Below are positions 29,489-38,487 of a stretch of DNA of 52,464 bases, piece after piece. The notes under the pieces were generated by a model. It had not been told where the DNA came from and made no database searches. It saw nothing but the letters and a program-made list of their open reading frames with translations. Every line of letters starts with the position of its first letter. Position 1 is the stretch's first letter. The translations under genes were made by a program, and so were the position numbers. The DNA lies in NCBI GenBank assembly GCA_030916565.1, contig JAUPWL010000002.1, positions 1 through 52,464 on the forward strand. The letters run 5' to 3'. The DNA comes from Patescibacteria group bacterium (lineage in GTDB: Bacteria; Patescibacteriota; Saccharimonadia; Saccharimonadales; Saccharimonadaceae).

Positions 29489-30508
29489 TTATGGCGCTGG
29501 GTTAAAACCATTTGGATTTTGCGATTGCCAGCGCCATGAATCTTCGCAGGCCTCTTCAATTGTCAATTCAGCTTTCCAATTAAGTTCCCTGTTCGCTTTT
29601 GCCGGGCTCGCATAACAAGCGGCAACATCACCCGGACGGCGATCGACAATTTGATAGGGAATTTCTTTACCGGCTGCCTTGCCGAGTGCTGCAATTAACT
29701 CAAGGACAGATACGCCTTTGCCGGTTGCGAGGTTATATGAATGTGCACCTGCCTTTGAGTGGTCTAAAGCTGCCGTGTGGCCTTTGGCAAGGTCGACCAC
29801 ATGTATATAGTCACGGACACCAGTGCCGTCGACCGTGTCCCAGTCGTTACCAAATACGTTAACCTTTTCCAGCTTTCCAACAGCAACCTGTGTGATATAT
29901 GGTAATAGGTTATTTGGAATGCCGCCTGGGTCTTCACCAATAGTGCCACCTTTGTGCGCACCAACTGGATTGAAGTAGCGAAGCAGGCTAACTTCGAATT
30001 CTGGATCCGATACACAAACATCCTGTAATATTTGTTCGATCATGAACTTTGTCTGCCCGTACGGGTTGGTGATACCAACGCCTACTCGACTAGTTTCGAC
30101 AAGAGGGAGTTCCTCGGGTTCTCCATAGACAGTGGCGGATGAGCTAAATACGAGCTTCTTTACGTCGTGCGCTCGCATAACTTCTAGTAATGACAACGTA
30201 GAGTTGATATTGTTACGGTAGTATTTAAGTGGTTTCTGGACTGATTCACCCACGGCTTTGAGTCCCGCGAAATGGATAACGGCGTCAAAGGTGTGTTCAG
30301 TAAATATATTTTCTAAAGATGCTGCATTACAGACATCTACCTCATAAAAAGGAATAGGATGCCCAGTAATTTTTTCTACCCGACGGAGTGATTCATTACT
30401 GCTGTTACTGAGATTGTCTACAGCGACGACGGTATGGCCAGCCTCGATTAATTCGACGATAGTATGACTACCTATGTAGCCAGTACCACCGGTAACAAGT
30501 ATATTCAT
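29489..30508 (-). CDS. galE: UDP-glucose 4-epimerase
   Basis: 339 aa; MNILVTGGTGYIGSHTIVELIEAGHTVVAVDNLSNSS, YGQTKFMIEQIL, RYFNPVGAHKGGTIGEDP. Confidence 0.95.
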   Translation of the reverse strand: MNILVTGGTGYIGSHTIVELIEAGHTVVAVDNLSNSSNESLRRVEKITGHPIPFYEVDVCNAASLENIFTEHTFDAVIHFAGLKAVGESVQKPLKYYRNNINSTLSLLEVMRAHDVKKLVFSSSATVYGEPEELPLVETSRVGVGITNPYGQTKFMIEQILQDVCVSDPEFEVSLLRYFNPVGAHKGGTIGEDPGGIPNNLLPYITQVAVGKLEKVNVFGNDWDTVDGTGVRDYIHVVDLAKGHTAALDHSKAGAHSYNLATGKGVSVLELIAALGKAAGKEIPYQIVDRRPGDVAACYASPAKANRELNWKAELTIEEACEDSWRWQSQNPNGFNPAP

Positions 30509-30564
30509 AGATACATTTTACCACCACCTGCAGCGGTTAGCTGATTCGTTGTATACTGGTTTAC

Positions 30565-31014
30565 ATGAAAATAGTAATTATCAGTGGATACTTCAACCCT
30601 CTTCACGGCGGTCACCTAGATATGATAGAGGCGGCAAGAGAAATGGGGGACAAACTAATCTGTGTCGTCAACAATGACAAACAGCAGGTACTAAAGAAGG
30701 GTAAGGTTATTCTCGACGAAGAAAACCGCCTGAGGCTTGTGGGCGCGCTACGAGCGGTTGACGAGGCTGTGCTGTCTATCGACGAAGAACCTCCAGTTAT
30801 TAATACACTACAGATGATTGCCAAGAAATATCCAGATGACGAGTTGATATTTGCCAACGGTGGGGATCGAGATAGCGAAAAGGTCATACCAGAGACTTAT
30901 GTATGTAATCAGTACGGCATAAAGACGGTGTTCGGCGTAGGAACGCACGTACGTGGACTTGTGAAACCTGATTCATCGACACGAATCAATCAAGCGCTTG
31001 GTCACGAAAAATAG
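30565..31014 (+). CDS. Cytidylyltransferase-like nucleotidyltransferase
   Basis: 149 aa; ISGYFNPLHGGHLDMIEAAREMGDKLICVVNND (HxGH-type motif). Confidence 0.8.
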   Translation: MKIVIISGYFNPLHGGHLDMIEAAREMGDKLICVVNNDKQQVLKKGKVILDEENRLRLVGALRAVDEAVLSIDEEPPVINTLQMIAKKYPDDELIFANGGDRDSEKVIPETYVCNQYGIKTVFGVGTHVRGLVKPDSSTRINQALGHEK

Positions 31015-31015
31015 G

Positions 31016-31783
31016 CTATTCAGGTTTGCGAGCGATTACGATACCGTGATTGCGCTTGGCAAATGTTGCTAGATAACCAGCGGTTAGTCCACGGACAACG
31101 GAATTGTTGCGGATTCTGCCAACAGGGCCACTTCGTTGTTTGTAGAGCGCTCGATGGGTGATTGCAGGGTAAGCATATGTCTTGATGGAAGAAAATCCAA
31201 CCTCTGCTATGAATGACCGCAGCAATTTAGGCGGCATATCCTTTTCGTTAACACCATACTTAGCCACTGCTTCAATCGACGATGGGGATTTGCTGTGGCC
31301 AACGCCGGGCTCACAGGCAATCAATAGGCCGCCCGGTTTGAGTGCACGATAAGCAGCAAGAAGTGCTGCGACTTCACTCTCGGCATGATGGAGTGAATCA
31401 AAGAATATCGCCGCATCAAATTCATCATGGTGGCTGATTTCGTCGTAGTCTTTGGTTTCAAACTTAAGATTAGTGATATCGCTAAAGTGCTTTTTGGCCG
31501 CACGGATTGCATCGGGAGAGATATCGATACCCGTCACATCGTAGCCGGCCTTTGCATAGAAAGAGCTTGTCCAGCCAGATCCACACCCGAGGTCGATAAT
31601 TTTTGCTGGTGGATGGGGAAGTAGTGAAAACACAGCAGCGATGTCGTGTAATAACGACCCAACATTGATAGGGTCTGAAAACGGTTTATGTAGCGTAAAG
31701 ATGACTCCGTCTTTGCCGATTTTTTTGAAGTACTCTCGCTCGCCTTGTTTTGCCATGTCATCCATTGTACAACACGTAAACAA
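31016..31783 (-). CDS. Class I SAM-dependent methyltransferase
   Basis: 255 aa; IIDLGCGSGWTSSFYAKAGYDVTGIDISPDAIRAAK; start may be an internal Met (MDDMAKQ/MAKQ). Confidence 0.88.
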   Translation of the reverse strand: MFTCCTMDDMAKQGEREYFKKIGKDGVIFTLHKPFSDPINVGSLLHDIAAVFSLLPHPPAKIIDLGCGSGWTSSFYAKAGYDVTGIDISPDAIRAAKKHFSDITNLKFETKDYDEISHHDEFDAAIFFDSLHHAESEVAALLAAYRALKPGGLLIACEPGVGHSKSPSSIEAVAKYGVNEKDMPPKLLRSFIAEVGFSSIKTYAYPAITHRALYKQRSGPVGRIRNNSVVRGLTAGYLATFAKRNHGIVIARKPE

Positions 31784-31850
31784 GGCTCTTTATTGTATAA
31801 TTGTGTATACATATAGCGCCTATGCGCATTACGATGGAGGACAAACACAT

Positions 31851-33665
31851 ATGTGCGGAATAGTCGGATACATTGGCAGCAAAGAAGCACAAGGCGTACT
31901 ACTGGGCGGTCTACGACGACTCGAATATCGTGGCTACGACAGCTCGGGTATCGTGACACTTGGAGACAGGTCAACTCTCCTCCGCGCCAAAGGCAAGGTT
32001 GCCGAACTCGAGGCAAAGGTGACGGAAAACAAGACGATCGATGGCGTCGGTATTGGTCATACTCGCTGGGCGACGCATGGCGTGCCGAGCGAAGAAAACG
32101 CCCATCCGCACAAATCCGGTGATATTTATCTGGTGCACAACGGCATCATTGAAAACTACAAAGAACTGAAAAAAGAGCTAAAAGACCACGAGTTCGTTAG
32201 CCAAACCGATACAGAGGTTTTGGCTGCACTCATCAATTCACTGTATGACAACGAAACCTCGCTAGAGTCTGCAGTGACTCAGGCATTGCAGTTGGTTGAT
32301 GGTACATATGGCATCGCCGTACTGTCGACGCGTGAACCGGAAAAGATTGTTGTCGCACGCAGCGGCAGCCCGTTGATTATTGGTGTTGGCAAGGACGAAA
32401 CTGTTATCGCCAGTGATGCGTCGGCGCTGATCGGGCACACTGAAAACGCTATTTATTTGAACGACGGCGAGATTGCCGTTTGTCGTGCCGGTTCGGTCGA
32501 TCTGACAGACCTGTCATCACAGCCGCTGAGCGCCAAGGTTGAAAAGATCGAGGCCGACATGTCAGCGATTCAGAAACAGGGTTACGACCATTTCTTGTTA
32601 AAAGAAATTATGGAACAGCCAACCACATTGCAGTCGACACTAAACGGACGTGTTGATCCCAAAGAAAACCGCGCAATGCTGGGCGGTCTGAACATGACCC
32701 AGGCGGAATTGCGCCAAATCGAACACGTCGTCATTATCGGATGCGGTACGGCGTACTATGCCGGAATGCTGGCGTCGTACTATCTGGAGCAATTAGTCGA
32801 TGGCCTGACCGTTGATGTCGAGATCGCGTCAGAACTTCGTTACCGTTCGTTCCATCTGCCGAAAAACAGCGTGGCGCTAATCGTCAGCCAGTCCGGCGAA
32901 ACTGCCGACACACTGGCGTGTCTGCGCGAAATCAAACGCCGCGGCGTCAAAACACTTGGTGTGATTAACGCTGTTGGTTCGACAATCGCACGTGAAGTTG
33001 ATGGCGGTGTCTATGTCCACGCAGGTCCGGAGATCTCTGTTGCCAGCACCAAGGCGTTTACGTCGCAGGTGGCTGCTATGACCGTATTTGGCGTGCAGTT
33101 GGCGCAGGCAAAAGGCGCAGGCGTGCAGGAACTGAACCAGTACATTAACGAACTGGCCGACCTGCCAGACGAAATCGAAAAGGTGCTTGCAGCCCATCGG
33201 GACGAGATCAAAGAAGTCGCCGCCAAATATACCAAATATGATCATGCACTATTCCTGGGTCGCGACACGCTATATCCGGCAGCCCTCGAAGGCGCATTGA
33301 AACTGAAAGAAATTAGTTATATCCAGGCCGAAGGCTATGCGGGCGGGGAATTGAAACACGGTCCGTTAGCACTAATCGACGATCGATTCTTTGAAGTCAT
33401 GTTGCTGCAAGACAACTGGCTATTCGACAAAGGTGTCAGTAACCTGGCCGAAGTAAACGCACGTGGCGGACACGTGGTCGTAATCACCAACAGCACCAAA
33501 CAAATCGACGCCGAAACAATCGTCCGTGTTGATACCAAACTAGATGCGCTAGTGCCGGTTGTGTTGAATGTCATCCAACAACTATTTGCATATTATGTCG
33601 CCGTCGCACGCGGCAACGACGTCGACCAGCCAAGGAATTTGGCGAAGAGCGTTACGGTCGAGTAG
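31851..33665 (+). CDS. glmS: Glutamine--fructose-6-phosphate aminotransferase (isomerizing)
   Basis: 604 aa from MCGIVGYIGSKEAQ (mature Cys2); ORF track over-extends start to 31641. SIS domains, C-terminus DVDQPRNLAKSVTVE. Confidence 0.97.
   Translation: MCGIVGYIGSKEAQGVLLGGLRRLEYRGYDSSGIVTLGDRSTLLRAKGKVAELEAKVTENKTIDGVGIGHTRWATHGVPSEENAHPHKSGDIYLVHNGIIENYKELKKELKDHEFVSQTDTEVLAALINSLYDNETSLESAVTQALQLVDGTYGIAVLSTREPEKIVVARSGSPLIIGVGKDETVIASDASALIGHTENAIYLNDGEIAVCRAGSVDLTDLSSQPLSAKVEKIEADMSAIQKQGYDHFLLKEIMEQPTTLQSTLNGRVDPKENRAMLGGLNMTQAELRQIEHVVIIGCGTAYYAGMLASYYLEQLVDGLTVDVEIASELRYRSFHLPKNSVALIVSQSGETADTLACLREIKRRGVKTLGVINAVGSTIAREVDGGVYVHAGPEISVASTKAFTSQVAAMTVFGVQLAQAKGAGVQELNQYINELADLPDEIEKVLAAHRDEIKEVAAKYTKYDHALFLGRDTLYPAALEGALKLKEISYIQAEGYAGGELKHGPLALIDDRFFEVMLLQDNWLFDKGVSNLAEVNARGGHVVVITNSTKQIDAETIVRVDTKLDALVPVVLNVIQQLFAYYVAVARGNDVDQPRNLAKSVTVE
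33623..33665 (+). repeat. Direct repeat copy 1: glmS 3' terminus
   Basis: CGACCAGCCAAGGAATTTGGCGAAGAGCGTTACGGTCGAGTAG; matched at 34137-34178. Confidence 0.95.
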
Positions 33666-33685
33666 TCAAGACCGAGCAAACTTTA

Positions 33686-33715
33686 TTGACAATAACGCTT
33701 ATGTTGTGATATACT
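33686..33715 (+). promoter_or_regulatory. Sigma70-like promoter of candidate sRNA
   Basis: TTGACA (33686-33691), 18-bp spacer, TATACT (33710-33715). Confidence 0.75.
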
Positions 33716-33720
33716 ATTTA

Positions 33721-33788
33721 ATGTAATCAGTTATATTGCAAGGCCTTGACGGCAAAAAAGAGACACCCAGACGGGTGCCTTTTTTGTT
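33721..33788 (+). ncRNA. Candidate small RNA ending in intrinsic terminator
   Basis: No CDS between promoter and terminator; contains CAAGGCCTTGACGG (33739-33752), complementary to anticodon arm of the adjacent tRNA-like gene. Confidence 0.55.
33754..33788. terminator. Bidirectional intrinsic terminator shared by convergent sRNA and tRNA-like transcripts
   Basis: AAAAAAGAG-a-CACCC-AGAC-GGGTG-c-CTTTTTT. Confidence 0.8.
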
Positions 33789-33827
33789 GAATAATTTTAT
33801 CGGTAGGCGTGGTCTAGCTCCTACCTT

Positions 33828-33914
33828 TGGTAACCGTGGTCGGACTCGAACCGACACGGGCTTGCGCCCAAGGCCTTGACGGGGTCTTGCGTATACCACT
33901 TTCGCCACACGGTC
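33828..33914 (-). tRNA. Class II (Leu-type) tRNA or tRNA-like RNA with atypical anticodon loop
   Basis: GACCGTG TG GCGAAAGTGGTATACGC A AGACC CCGTCAA GGCCT + variable arm GGGC-GCAA-GCCC + GTCGG TTCGAGT CCGAC + CACGGTT ACCA; encoded CCA. Loop geometry gives GTC at 34-36 with C33. Confidence 0.75.
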
Positions 33915-34136
33915 CCCTGCTCTTAGGACATTGTGCGGGCTCATCGGTTACCAATAAATATATTATCATGTACGTAATGCTTATGCAAGTATAGCATAAA
34001 CACTATTTAAGCACATTTGCAACAACAGAAAATAGGGTAAACCACCTCTGTTAAAAATTGCAGAAATAAAACAAATATTTTTCAATATGTAAATATTTCA
34101 TACGATTCAACAGTAAATATAAATAAAAAAATGCGA

Positions 34137-34178
34137 CGACCAGCAAGGAATTTGGCGAAGAGCGTTACTGTTGAGTAG
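34137..34178 (+). repeat. Direct repeat copy 2: displaced/duplicated glmS 3' terminus
   Basis: CGACCAGC-AAGGAATTTGGCGAAGAGCGTTACTGTTGAGTAG; one deletion and two synonymous changes relative to glmS end (RNLAKSVTVE* preserved). Confidence 0.95.
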
Positions 34179-34183
34179 AAAAG

Positions 34184-34513
34184 CTAAAAGGTAAAACGAT
34201 CGGGACCCATAGAGAAGCCATAAACAATATACGCGTAGAAAAGGAGTATGATGCTAAAGACGATTCCTAATATTGCAAAAATCCTCTGCGATCCTTTTAT
34301 GCCACGCGACAATAATATACATTCACCAATAAAACCTGCGATGGCGGTAATTGTTGCAACTGCGACGTTGAGACCGATAGTTGATGATCTTGGTCCAGAA
34401 AGCACAGGTCCAACCATGAAGAAGTAAAAAGGTAGCCAGATGACCGGCAATAGCGTTAACTTTTTGGACGATATGATATCGCTGTCTCTTTTATCTCTAC
34501 TATTTTTCGACAT
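34184..34513 (-). CDS. Small multi-pass membrane protein, unknown function
   Basis: 109 aa; about three hydrophobic helices. Confidence 0.6.
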   Translation of the reverse strand: MSKNSRDKRDSDIISSKKLTLLPVIWLPFYFFMVGPVLSGPRSSTIGLNVAVATITAIAGFIGECILLSRGIKGSQRIFAILGIVFSIILLFYAYIVYGFSMGPDRFTF

Positions 34514-34844
34514 TCATGCCTTGGTTTTCGGCGTCTTGTGTTGTTCGTAGGCCCGCAGCGCTAGCCTCTGAAGGAGTGCAGTAGTAAGTTTCGTAGCCGA
34601 GCCTAAAGGGCTCAAAGCCTTTTGTTTCTTCATACCAAGCAATTCCCGCACCGGGCGCTGTACGAAACTTGACAGGCCTTTGTCCACAAGACAGCCACTT
34701 GCTGTAAAATCTATAATTTCCACCAAGCGGCGAGGCATCAAATAATACAATAAGACTAGCAACCAATAAAAATGCTACTAGAGATTTTTTCCGTATATTA
34801 AGTCTATATATTATATTATTCTGATTTTGCAATTTATTCTGCAT
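34500..34844 (-). CDS. Small secreted/membrane-anchored protein, unknown function
   Basis: 114 aa; N-terminal hydrophobic segment, 14-nt overlap with downstream gene. Confidence 0.55.
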   Translation of the reverse strand: MQNKLQNQNNIIYRLNIRKKSLVAFLLVASLIVLFDASPLGGNYRFYSKWLSCGQRPVKFRTAPGAGIAWYEETKGFEPFRLGYETYYCTPSEASAAGLRTTQDAENQGMNVEK

Positions 34845-34861
34845 AAGATACTACTGAACGC

Positions 34862-37525
34862 TTATTTATATAATTCTCTTTTAATAATATAAAGCACAAA
34901 CATAATAATAGTAATAGCTGGAACCAGTAGAATGACTAATGAGTTTGAATTTAATAATATATTTCGTTCACCTTTATCTCTTGAATCGGACAATTTATTT
35001 ACAGTCGCAACATTTTGCCTGGACGTAGAATTCACCTCAATTTTAGGTCCGCATATATCTTCGACTGCAGAGAATGCAATACCGCTGTTAGGCGGCGTAA
35101 TGTACGCGCAAGGATCTGTAGCATCTGATATTCCGTCTTCATCATGGTCGCTTGGATTGGTGCCTCGAACTTCGATAATTTGATACAGGTCTATCGGTTT
35201 GCCAGAGTATGATTCACCAGACACTACAAGTGTGTGGATACCTGCGGGGACAATTTCTGGGATGACTATATCTTTAGTAAAGCCTCCATCGTTATCGACG
35301 GAGAGAGTGCCAAGATCTATAGGGTCTGAATAAAGTTTAATATTAGCGACCGATCCTGGTCGAAGCTCGTATTGACTGGCCACTATTGTGCTGTTTGACC
35401 TCTTTATTATCGGCTCACTGATCAACTTTTTGGCACGTACAAGTTTATTGTATCCGAGCATCGAGTTGGTAAAATATTCTGTCGGCTGAGGTTCGTTTGT
35501 GCCAACCTCCCTAGTCTGAGAATAGGGGTAATCAACAGGACTGACGCTAGCAAGCTGTTTTATTAAAGTTTGTGCGATTTTTTGATGCCCCTGTGCATTA
35601 GGATGAAACGTAGAGGAAAATAATTCCGTCTTAAATCCTATATCGGATGTTCCAGTGACATATCCTTTACTTTCACATAGTTTGCCACCATCGAGACTAT
35701 CCTCTAAATCTATGTAAACGACACCAGTTTTTTCAGCAACGGACCTAATCACTTTATTCATGTAAGTAACCCCTTCGGCTATCATATGACGCTCATTCGA
35801 ATCAATTAGTCCGGCGTTTGCTCCACAGTAGGCAGTGCCGTCACTAATAAATTGGGGGTACCCAAGATAATAAATTTTAGTGCTTGGGGAGTGTAAATGT
35901 ATTAACTCAATAAGGGACAATAGCTGCCCGTATGACTGCTTAATTGTCTGACCCAGTAGACCGCGTAGTTGATTAGAGTCTGCATATGAACAGGTAAAGA
36001 AGCTATGTGCACATTCGTCCAAAATGGGGCCAAACTTTACATCGTTGCCACCAATAGTCATTGTGATTGATGCCGGCTTGTATTTAATAATAAATTCAAG
36101 TTGACTTGCGTAGCCTGGTATAAATGCATCTTTGGCAATTGTTTGTTTAGTTATGCGCTCTTCCGCGGAGTATTTACTTAGCCTGCCACCTTGACCTAGA
36201 TATTTTTCACTACCGCCGATGTCAAGCGTAACTGCGCCTGAGCATGCTATAGATTTCATCTTTGGTGACGAAAAATGATAGTGATTTTTGATTAAAAACG
36301 GATATGATCTTTCACTTATATGGCAGCCTCCAAAGTAATCTGTGCCGGGAAGATAATAGGATGTACCATTCTCTCTATTTTCTATATCGCCTTCGCCACT
36401 GGAGTATGAGTCGCCAAGTGCAAGATAATCTAGGGTTTCTGGTGCGGTATAGTTGGCTGCGCGTAGGCTAATGTGATGGATCGGGTCGGTCGAATTGGAC
36501 GCGTAGAAACTGATTTCGCCACCATCATCGTTAAAACGTGGTTGATACGCCGCTGTCATGTTCGGCATGTATGTATTGTTCGCGGGGTCGTTCATAGGTG
36601 CGGCAAGAAACAGCGCAGGGCATTCGGTTGTCAGTTGGCCTTGTCTTTCCAGTGTATTTAGTTGTGCGGGATCTGACGGAACGGTATAGCCGCAGTCTGG
36701 TGTTAATTCAAAAATTGCATTGCTGGTGTTGCGGCCGAATATTGCGACGTTGCGGCCATCATTAGACACATCGATTTCCATATCGGGTGCAGAGCCCGGG
36801 GCGGAGTAATTTGTTTTGAGGTACAAGAATTTAACGGTTTGCCCAGTGTCCATGTCCATGCGGTACATTCCACGACCGACCAGTTCGAATACAAGCCATT
36901 TGTCATTTTGCGAGCGTTGGAGATATTTAGTCGTAGAGCGGAAATCATCGGTGGTAAAACGGTCGGTCAGGATTTCATCAGGAGACTGCTCGCCGGTAAA
37001 ATATGTTTCCACCCGCAAATTAGGGAGTGTGATGCGCTGCATGTGCAACCGTTTAACGAAGTCTTTGAACATAAAAACTTTGCCATCACCGTATGTACCG
37101 GGGGACTGGATGCTAATCAGGTAGTCGCGGCTGGGCATATAAACACAGCCATAAAAACAGGTGGCGCCACTGTTGATAACGTGCGCATTTGATTCACCGC
37201 CAAAGCTGACGGCCAGTTTGCCATCGTCACCTCCGAACAGCTGGTAATTGTCACCACTACCGATCAAACATTCGGTGTTGTATTGCCTTGACTGGTCTTC
37301 GACGCCTTCGATTTTGCGTTGGTCTCGTATGCTTTGGAATTTTGATGCACACATGTTATTCCAGTCATCATTAGGACTAACTTCGTCTGAATATACTGTT
37401 GTCGGGATGCCGGTCGTCCACGACCATGAATCGGCACGGGCCATATTTAACATGAAAAGTGAAAGAACGACCATAGAAATAGTCGCCAATAGAGCAATAT
37501 TGCGGTGGACAATCAACTTCTTCAT
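34862..37525 (-). CDS. Large surface SGNH/GDSL hydrolase with N-terminal propeller-like region and C-terminal TM anchor
   Basis: 887 aa; signal peptide; LDYLALGDSYSSGEGD, ITMTIGGNDVKFGPIL, FHPNAQGHQKIA (GDS / GxND / DxxH-like blocks); DHDEDGISDATDPC Ca-type repeat; C-terminal TM + KRELYK. Confidence 0.85.
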   Translation of the reverse strand: MKKLIVHRNIALLATISMVVLSLFMLNMARADSWSWTTGIPTTVYSDEVSPNDDWNNMCASKFQSIRDQRKIEGVEDQSRQYNTECLIGSGDNYQLFGGDDGKLAVSFGGESNAHVINSGATCFYGCVYMPSRDYLISIQSPGTYGDGKVFMFKDFVKRLHMQRITLPNLRVETYFTGEQSPDEILTDRFTTDDFRSTTKYLQRSQNDKWLVFELVGRGMYRMDMDTGQTVKFLYLKTNYSAPGSAPDMEIDVSNDGRNVAIFGRNTSNAIFELTPDCGYTVPSDPAQLNTLERQGQLTTECPALFLAAPMNDPANNTYMPNMTAAYQPRFNDDGGEISFYASNSTDPIHHISLRAANYTAPETLDYLALGDSYSSGEGDIENRENGTSYYLPGTDYFGGCHISERSYPFLIKNHYHFSSPKMKSIACSGAVTLDIGGSEKYLGQGGRLSKYSAEERITKQTIAKDAFIPGYASQLEFIIKYKPASITMTIGGNDVKFGPILDECAHSFFTCSYADSNQLRGLLGQTIKQSYGQLLSLIELIHLHSPSTKIYYLGYPQFISDGTAYCGANAGLIDSNERHMIAEGVTYMNKVIRSVAEKTGVVYIDLEDSLDGGKLCESKGYVTGTSDIGFKTELFSSTFHPNAQGHQKIAQTLIKQLASVSPVDYPYSQTREVGTNEPQPTEYFTNSMLGYNKLVRAKKLISEPIIKRSNSTIVASQYELRPGSVANIKLYSDPIDLGTLSVDNDGGFTKDIVIPEIVPAGIHTLVVSGESYSGKPIDLYQIIEVRGTNPSDHDEDGISDATDPCAYITPPNSGIAFSAVEDICGPKIEVNSTSRQNVATVNKLSDSRDKGERNILLNSNSLVILLVPAITIIMFVLYIIKRELYK

Positions 37526-37637
37526 CTGGGGTCATTATACACAAAACTTGTTAAATGTGTTAAAAAATACTTAAAATAAGTTTATAATTCTTATACTTAA
37601 AATTCTAAGTTTGACCACGACACTGACCGCTAAATAC

Positions 37638-37646
37638 TTATCCACA
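37638..37646 (+). promoter_or_regulatory. Perfect DnaA-box sequence upstream of sRNA promoter
   Basis: TTATCCACA. Confidence 0.3.
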
Positions 37647-37661
37647 TTGCCAGACAATGAA

Positions 37662-37690
37662 TTGACATACATTTCAATAGCTGATATACT
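37662..37690 (+). promoter_or_regulatory. Consensus sigma70-like promoter
   Basis: TTGACA - 17 bp - TATACT. Confidence 0.8.
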
Positions 37691-37696
37691 ACGTAT

Positions 37697-37759
37697 GTAG
37701 ATGGAAAGCGTGGATTGGTCCCTGGTGACCGTAGGATCCAAAGCGCCATCTATTTTTTA
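37697..37759 (+). ncRNA. Candidate structured small RNA with terminal stem and U-tract
   Basis: TAGATGG/CCATCTA closing stem, symmetric AAAGCG internal loops, TGGAT/ATCCA stem, GGTC-CCTGGT-GACC hairpin, then ATTTTTT; no ORF. Confidence 0.65.
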
Positions 37760-38487
37760 TTGTTTTCGATAACCTGAAAAACTTCCCCTCGCGCCAATTT
37801 AATCGATTGCTGGTGGGAGAGTTCTAATGTTCCTAATTTACGCTGTAAATGCTTTAAGAGCCGTAGTTTAGCGCCAGATCCTTTTGCGGCACCAAGCCGG
37901 ATTTTGAATGAATATGCGACCAAACCTAACAAAACGTCAGTCATTTGAATTTCGGATACCGCATGCGACTCAAGCCTAGCAATGCCAAATAGGGCATTGC
38001 GCCGTTGTTTCTTTTTGATTGCTTCTCGAATAATCTTTTCGAATTTGTCATCTTTACTGGTCGAGACATCATCGGCAAGTACAGTAATATATTCGCTCGC
38101 GCGCGAGCGTTTATAGTCTATAGAACCAGCGATTAACGCCGCAGCTAGTTTGTTGTACGCGGTGTGACTTTTTTCATTCTTGGTGATCTGATAAGTTTCC
38201 TTGTCGACAACCAGGCAGTGGAAGCGGTTATTCGTACAGCCGAAGAATACGTCAATAAGTTCTTTGTATACTGCCAGGTTTTGATCTGTTATGTCGCTAA
38301 ATTTAAACTCGCGATGATAGCCGCGCCGGTTTTTCAAATTAATGATGGCACGATGTAGTTCGCGGGTGTTTTGGCTGACTAATAAACCAAGTCCAAAAAT
38401 TCGATCTGTTTTGGCACTGTGTAATAGGCCGGTTTCGTCCATAAAACCGAATACGTGTATGCGTGGTTTCGGTCCGCTAACGTCCAT
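37750..38487 (-). CDS. DUF3800-like protein
   Basis: 245 aa; HVFGFMDETGLLHSAKTDRIFGLGLLV N-terminus, VLADDVSTSKDDKFEKII, consistent with DUF3800 (RNase H-like fold). Confidence 0.65.
   Translation of the reverse strand: MDVSGPKPRIHVFGFMDETGLLHSAKTDRIFGLGLLVSQNTRELHRAIINLKNRRGYHREFKFSDITDQNLAVYKELIDVFFGCTNNRFHCLVVDKETYQITKNEKSHTAYNKLAAALIAGSIDYKRSRASEYITVLADDVSTSKDDKFEKIIREAIKKKQRRNALFGIARLESHAVSEIQMTDVLLGLVAYSFKIRLGAAKGSGAKLRLLKHLQRKLGTLELSHQQSIKLARGEVFQVIENNKK

Follow-up and report, generated by a model that had tools for sequence, protein, structure and literature searches.

A 14-nucleotide direct repeat downstream of a tRNA-like gene, and the broken tRNA copies of the order Saccharimonadales

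In the tyrT operon of E. coli, the RtT RNA (Rfam RF00391) is made up of repeats of the tRNA 3' end, arranged in longer tandem units. The anticodon loop of tRNA genes is a known place of crossover for tyrosine recombinases. Elements that are integrated into tRNA genes by these enzymes are bounded by attL/attR repeats. In our study, a locus with likenesses to these systems was found in a window of 52,464 nucleotides (the whole stretch of DNA that was analysed), which belongs to a draft genome of 954 kb in 64 contigs. As with attL/attR, a segment of a tRNA gene that starts from the anticodon loop is directly repeated downstream of the intact gene. As with cis-encoded antisense RNAs and the RNAs of type I toxin-antitoxin systems, a convergent promoter and a complementary stretch are present. 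The original prediction had read the locus as an antisense decoy or regulator of the tRNA-like RNA, conceivably an RNA-only addiction pair, and had named an old recombination core as the alternative.

The tRNA-like gene, its 14-nt repeat and the glmS neighbourhood

The features of the locus are collected in Table 1. The tRNA-like gene, placed on the minus strand by the original prediction, was borne out by ARAGORN, which called it tRNA-Asp (GUC) of 87 nt, and by Rfam tRNA with 42.3 bits, the lowest score among the genome's 41 matches over the cut-off. A cloverleaf with T-arm and D-arm was recognised by both, and the CCA end is encoded in the sequence. The D-arm, the long variable arm and the T-arm were found to resemble those of tRNA-Leu (Rfam alignment and relatives). 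Position 33 was C and not U, and the anticodon stem contained an A-C mismatch, so that it is not fully paired (sequence and Rfam alignment). Canonical tRNA-Asp (GUC) and tRNA-Leu (CAA) are encoded elsewhere in the genome. The gene probably encodes a surplus tRNA that is inactive or unusual. The complement between its leader and its 3' end spans 10 nt, includes the CCA, and was paired in the predicted fold of a 128-nt precursor.

The sequence CAAGGCCTTGACGG was found in exact copies on the plus strand at 33739–33752 and 33869–33882, as had been predicted, and no third copy with at most one mismatch was present in the 954 kb of the genome. The longest match between the tRNA and its flank was 11 nt in 1000 shuffles, against 14 nt in the real sequence; the match is real and not a product of chance. 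Its predicted location in the anticodon loop and 3' stem also held, with two bases in addition. The two copies form a direct repeat, with the distal one downstream of the gene at +75, so complementarity between RNAs exists only where the opposite strand is transcribed. The core of the 14-mer, CAAGGCCTTG, is a 10-bp palindrome, and each RNA is therefore also able to pair with itself. The match could not be extended beyond 14 nt in gapped alignment. The 3' half of the tRNA does not follow the distal copy, and neither an inserted element nor more tRNA sequence was found in its flanks.

Table 1. Positions of the features in the window, and loci of the three-hairpin element
Feature	Position	Strand	Basis or remark
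glmS-like gene (glutamine amidotransferase and SIS domains), end DQPRNLAKSVTVE	31641..33665	+	Pfam SIS and GATase_6
glmS 3' end, first copy of the direct repeat of about 45 bp	33620..33665	+	91% identity to second copy
Promoter TTGACA-N18-TATACT	33686..33715	+	11/12 match; comparable promoter-like sequences in other members of the order
Putative short transcript: AUG-UAA, then hairpins and terminator	33721..33787	+	suggested by promoter and terminator; fold z -2.1
14-nt candidate partial tRNA copy, CCGTCAAGGCCTTG, tRNA positions 33–46	33739..33752	-	75 nt beyond the tRNA 3' end
Bidirectional terminator-like hairpin (A-tract, stem, T-tract)	33761..33780	both	sequence prediction
tRNA-like gene: Leu-type body, long variable arm, anticodon GUC, C33, encoded CCA	33828..33914	-	ARAGORN; Rfam tRNA
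Identical 14-mer within the tRNA-like gene	33869..33882	-	anticodon loop, 3' stem and two further bases
Leader TTGGTAACCG, exact complement of the tRNA 3' end CGGTTACCAA (33827–33836)	33945..33954	-	read from sequence
Possible -10 element TATACT of the tRNA-like gene	33988..33993	-	suggested by sequence
Second copy of the glmS 3' end	34134..34180 (about)	+	513 bp away; genome has two copies only
Three-hairpin element, loci L032, L047, L053, L118, L119, L123, L130, L150, L187, L196, L197, L202–L231			

The glmS-like gene was alignable to the glmS of seven relatives in the genus. Its last 45 bp or so recur downstream, and the promoter, the terminator and the tRNA-like gene thus lie within an insert of about 0.5 kb, which was not seen after glmS in any of the seven genus relatives displayed. 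The tRNA-like gene also aligned loosely with the glmS 3'-end copy (33935–34180 against 33828–33914), possibly by chance; the score was 28 against a null maximum of 27 in 300 shuffles, in one of four tests. Of the seven relatives displayed, three (L058, L060 and L061) have a promoter-like sequence, read by eye rather than by a promoter scan, in the gap that separates the stop codon of glmS from the ATG of the following gene. No promoter-like layout was noted there in the other four.

The promoter that had been predicted directly after glmS is present as an 11/12 match, a score to be read against the 2.0 sites of at least 9/12 that shuffled sequence yields per 800 nt. Sequences like this promoter also occur between genes in further genomes. 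The predicted stretch of about 65 nt lacking an ORF was recovered (no ORF of note in 33721–33787), as was the bidirectional terminator, in the form of a predicted hairpin on both strands. Symmetric terminators of the same type stand behind 19 of the 39 tRNAs of the genome, where bidirectional terminators are standard behind tRNAs. The promoter, followed by the AUG-UAA, may at one time have served a gene after glmS that has since been lost or displaced, and any transcript from 33721 would, we infer, have no dedicated function.

Patterns run over genome contigs, viral contigs, relatives and the order found no homologue with the anticodon arm of the tRNA-like gene. Three relatives that matched the Leu-body pattern were carriers of tRNA-Leu (CAA). 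The matches in viral contigs were rejected as homologues; they comprised two stretches devoid of any tRNA, an unrelated high-GC phage tRNA, and one tRNA-Leu (CAA), which sits on a contig of 517 kb. A search of phage DNA gave no match. Rfam at the gathering threshold returned nothing in the window, RtT included, and the sub-threshold matches to SpF01, STnc40 and RNAI were taken as chance.

Partial copies beside tRNA genes of the order

An exact partial self-copy of at least 13 nt was found within 300 bp of 37 of 164 tRNA genes in five draft genomes (10/40 in the genome holding the window, and 7/29, 2/14, 12/44 and 6/37 in the others). The copies were mostly direct, on the tRNA's own strand, with mostly 5' parts upstream and mostly 3' parts downstream. 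Upstream and downstream fragments covered positions 1–51 and 57–75 of tRNA-Gln in L032, 1–25 and 57–75 of tRNA-Lys in L123, and 1–53 and 57–70 of tRNA-Glu in L187, respectively. The outer 3' copy restarted at about +67 to +82, past the terminator, in L053, L038 (tRNA-Arg), L119, L150 and L187. Breaks in the anticodon loop were also found elsewhere; the fragment of L196 restarts at tRNA position 33 and that of L047 ends at position 38. A minority of the fragments were inverted, such as those of tRNA-Phe 28–50 (L183) and 29–49 (L162).

In these last two loci, which belong to two genera, the tRNA-Phe gene is followed by an antisense copy of the anticodon arm and then by a sense copy of the 3' part. 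On the strand of the tRNA itself, the inverted copies read as antisense to its anticodon arm, and each fits its own tRNA, the two tRNAs being different. Inverted repeats were found to flank the inner tRNA genes of L005 (1395–1660), L032 and L118, for example CAAATTACAT/ATGTAATTTG and GTTCAGCATTCTTCTCT/AGAGAAGCATGCTGAAC.

The loops of many broken tRNA copies beside intact tRNA genes contained an element of about 88 nt, with the order GTGAGA-hairpin-TCGCAAGG-hairpin-CGGGG-hairpin. Compensatory changes were found in 23 of the 32 predicted pairs in an alignment of 11 copies, which were chosen from tRNA loci by eye and by pattern and on which the structure itself was predicted. The covariance model matched 96 of 293 genomes of the order, and all 10 matching genomes in a sample of the phylum belonged to the same order under strict filters. 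A recognisable tRNA gene lay within 600 nt at 27 of the best 30 element loci, tRNA sequence flanked the element at two more, and at the remaining one it was not located, the flank identities being judged by eye. Rfam contained no family for the element, and a resemblance to DUF3800-VI RNA was rejected (17 bits against 35, E 0.78). A literature search with narrow terms, which is weak evidence of absence, gave no description of the element or of the broken copies. The element is absent at the 14-mer locus (model R1, at most 5.1 bits in 30000–38000), as it is from many other fragment-bearing loci.

Other recurring inserts were found in the broken copies of L018, L031, L038, L042, L043, L016, L152, L175 and L181, some of them at the same tRNA in several species. 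The types include TGCGTGAAACGCAAATTAT in the D-loop, GYGTAGYGAG...GGAG...AGCGAT in the T-loop, and CTACTGTCAAAT...ATTTGTACAGTAG.

Many tRNA genes of this order, whose bacteria have reduced genomes, adjoin broken copies of themselves, and many of these copies hold a structured, strongly covarying element. The pattern may represent a mobile element, a regulator of tRNAs or a by-product of the replacement of tRNA genes.

Probable origin of the downstream 14-mer

With a probability of roughly 60%, we consider the 14-mer at 33739–33752 to be a partial downstream copy of the tRNA-like gene and one case of the broken-copy pattern of the lineage. It would have been produced by the same process as the other partial tRNA copies, with which it agrees in length (14 nt, where at least 13 nt were required), in lying within 300 bp, and in its direct orientation downstream of the gene. 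Given the base rate of 37/164 and the polarity of the fragments, a 14-nt fragment at +75 is unsurprising. The outer 3' copies that restart at about +67 to +82, the anticodon-loop breaks of L196 and L047, the symmetric terminators behind other tRNAs and the promoter-like sequences after glmS in three relatives are further points in its favour. The copy would have been laid down in direct orientation immediately beyond the tRNA terminator, and would be "antisense" only through the separate promoter after glmS, which points back across it. Against this reading, the fragment is short and comes from the anticodon arm only, whereas downstream fragments at other loci usually extend from the T-loop as far as the CCA end. 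Its flanks hold neither an inserted element nor more of the tRNA, and no homologous locus with an intermediate stage was found.

It is rather unlikely that the 14-mer is instead a recombination scar within a mini-island at the 3' end of glmS, in which an element integrated site-specifically into the anticodon arm (core of 7-bp loop and one stem arm) and was later lost for the most part. The direct match that begins at the anticodon loop, the 45-bp repeat of the glmS 3' end that bounds the island, and the one Phage_integrase protein of the genome are in keeping with such an event. However, the cores lie just 130 bp apart, and no integrase family was found among the ten scanned proteins of the window, a set that takes in either side of the island. 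The recombination core is nearer to the evidence than the antisense RNA that the original prediction had preferred, but its second copy is not followed by the tRNA 3' half. The glmS 3' end was also considered as an isolated attachment site and rejected, as all 33 matches in viral contigs carry the conserved LAKSVTVE* terminus and were taken for the ends of glmS genes.

Less likely again is that the partial sense and antisense tRNA copies form an order-wide, long-lived set, many of them with the three-hairpin RNA, that acts on the neighbouring tRNA genes or their RNAs; at the present locus, it would do so by pairing in antisense with the anticodon arm.

More doubtful still is a small antisense RNA from 33721 which would use its 14-mer to pair with the anticodon arm of the tRNA-like RNA, so blocking or destabilising the latter, as a regulator, a decoy or an RNA-only addiction pair. 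Such an RNA is physically possible. A consensus promoter and a terminator are present, and the match starts exactly at the anticodon loop. The duplex prediction proposed at the outset gave -30.3 kcal/mol with the tRNA-like RNA, more favourable by about 9 kcal/mol than the value for any other tRNA of the genome that was tested. The predicted gain on co-folding was -18.6; the other tRNAs in the list of best-pairing ones reached -5.5 at most. Nothing specific supports a regulator, a decoy or an addiction pair. The searches over genome contigs, viral contigs, relatives and the order gave no homologue, and the layout is not a rule at other fragment-bearing loci. Among the 25 loci that have a downstream fragment, 3 showed a convergent promoter of at least 10/12, which in one case overlaps an insert, and among the 130 loci lacking such a fragment the number was 5; these are small numbers. 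As a target, the tRNA-like RNA is aberrant and probably an inactive extra tRNA in a genome with the canonical tRNAs, and the palindromic core permits self-pairing as well. The antisense regulator is weak because each of its parts has an ordinary counterpart. If true, an antisense regulator of a tRNA would be unusual; the claim is unsupported here.

Chance identity, aided by the palindromic composition of the core, is very improbable: a single locus was chosen from a 52-kb window after the window had been read, and two sites can have a palindrome in common on other grounds, for instance because a protein binds there, but the 1000 shuffles and the search of the whole genome speak against it.

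Comparison with described systems

The 14-mer locus differs from each of the systems named at the outset. In cis-encoded antisense RNAs and type I toxin-antitoxin systems the likeness ends with the promoter and the complementary stretch; here the target is tRNA-like with no toxin ORF, the complementarity comes from a direct repeat, and no homologous locus was found. Compared with attL/attR, the remainder of the 3' half is missing from the distal repeat, the copies are spaced 130 bp apart and no integrase was found nearby among the ten proteins scanned. The RtT repeats, of which Rfam finds none in the window, are copies of the 3' end, whereas the present locus holds a single 14-nt fragment of the anticodon arm; what the two share is that a short segment of a tRNA is copied, in direct orientation, downstream of the gene for that tRNA.
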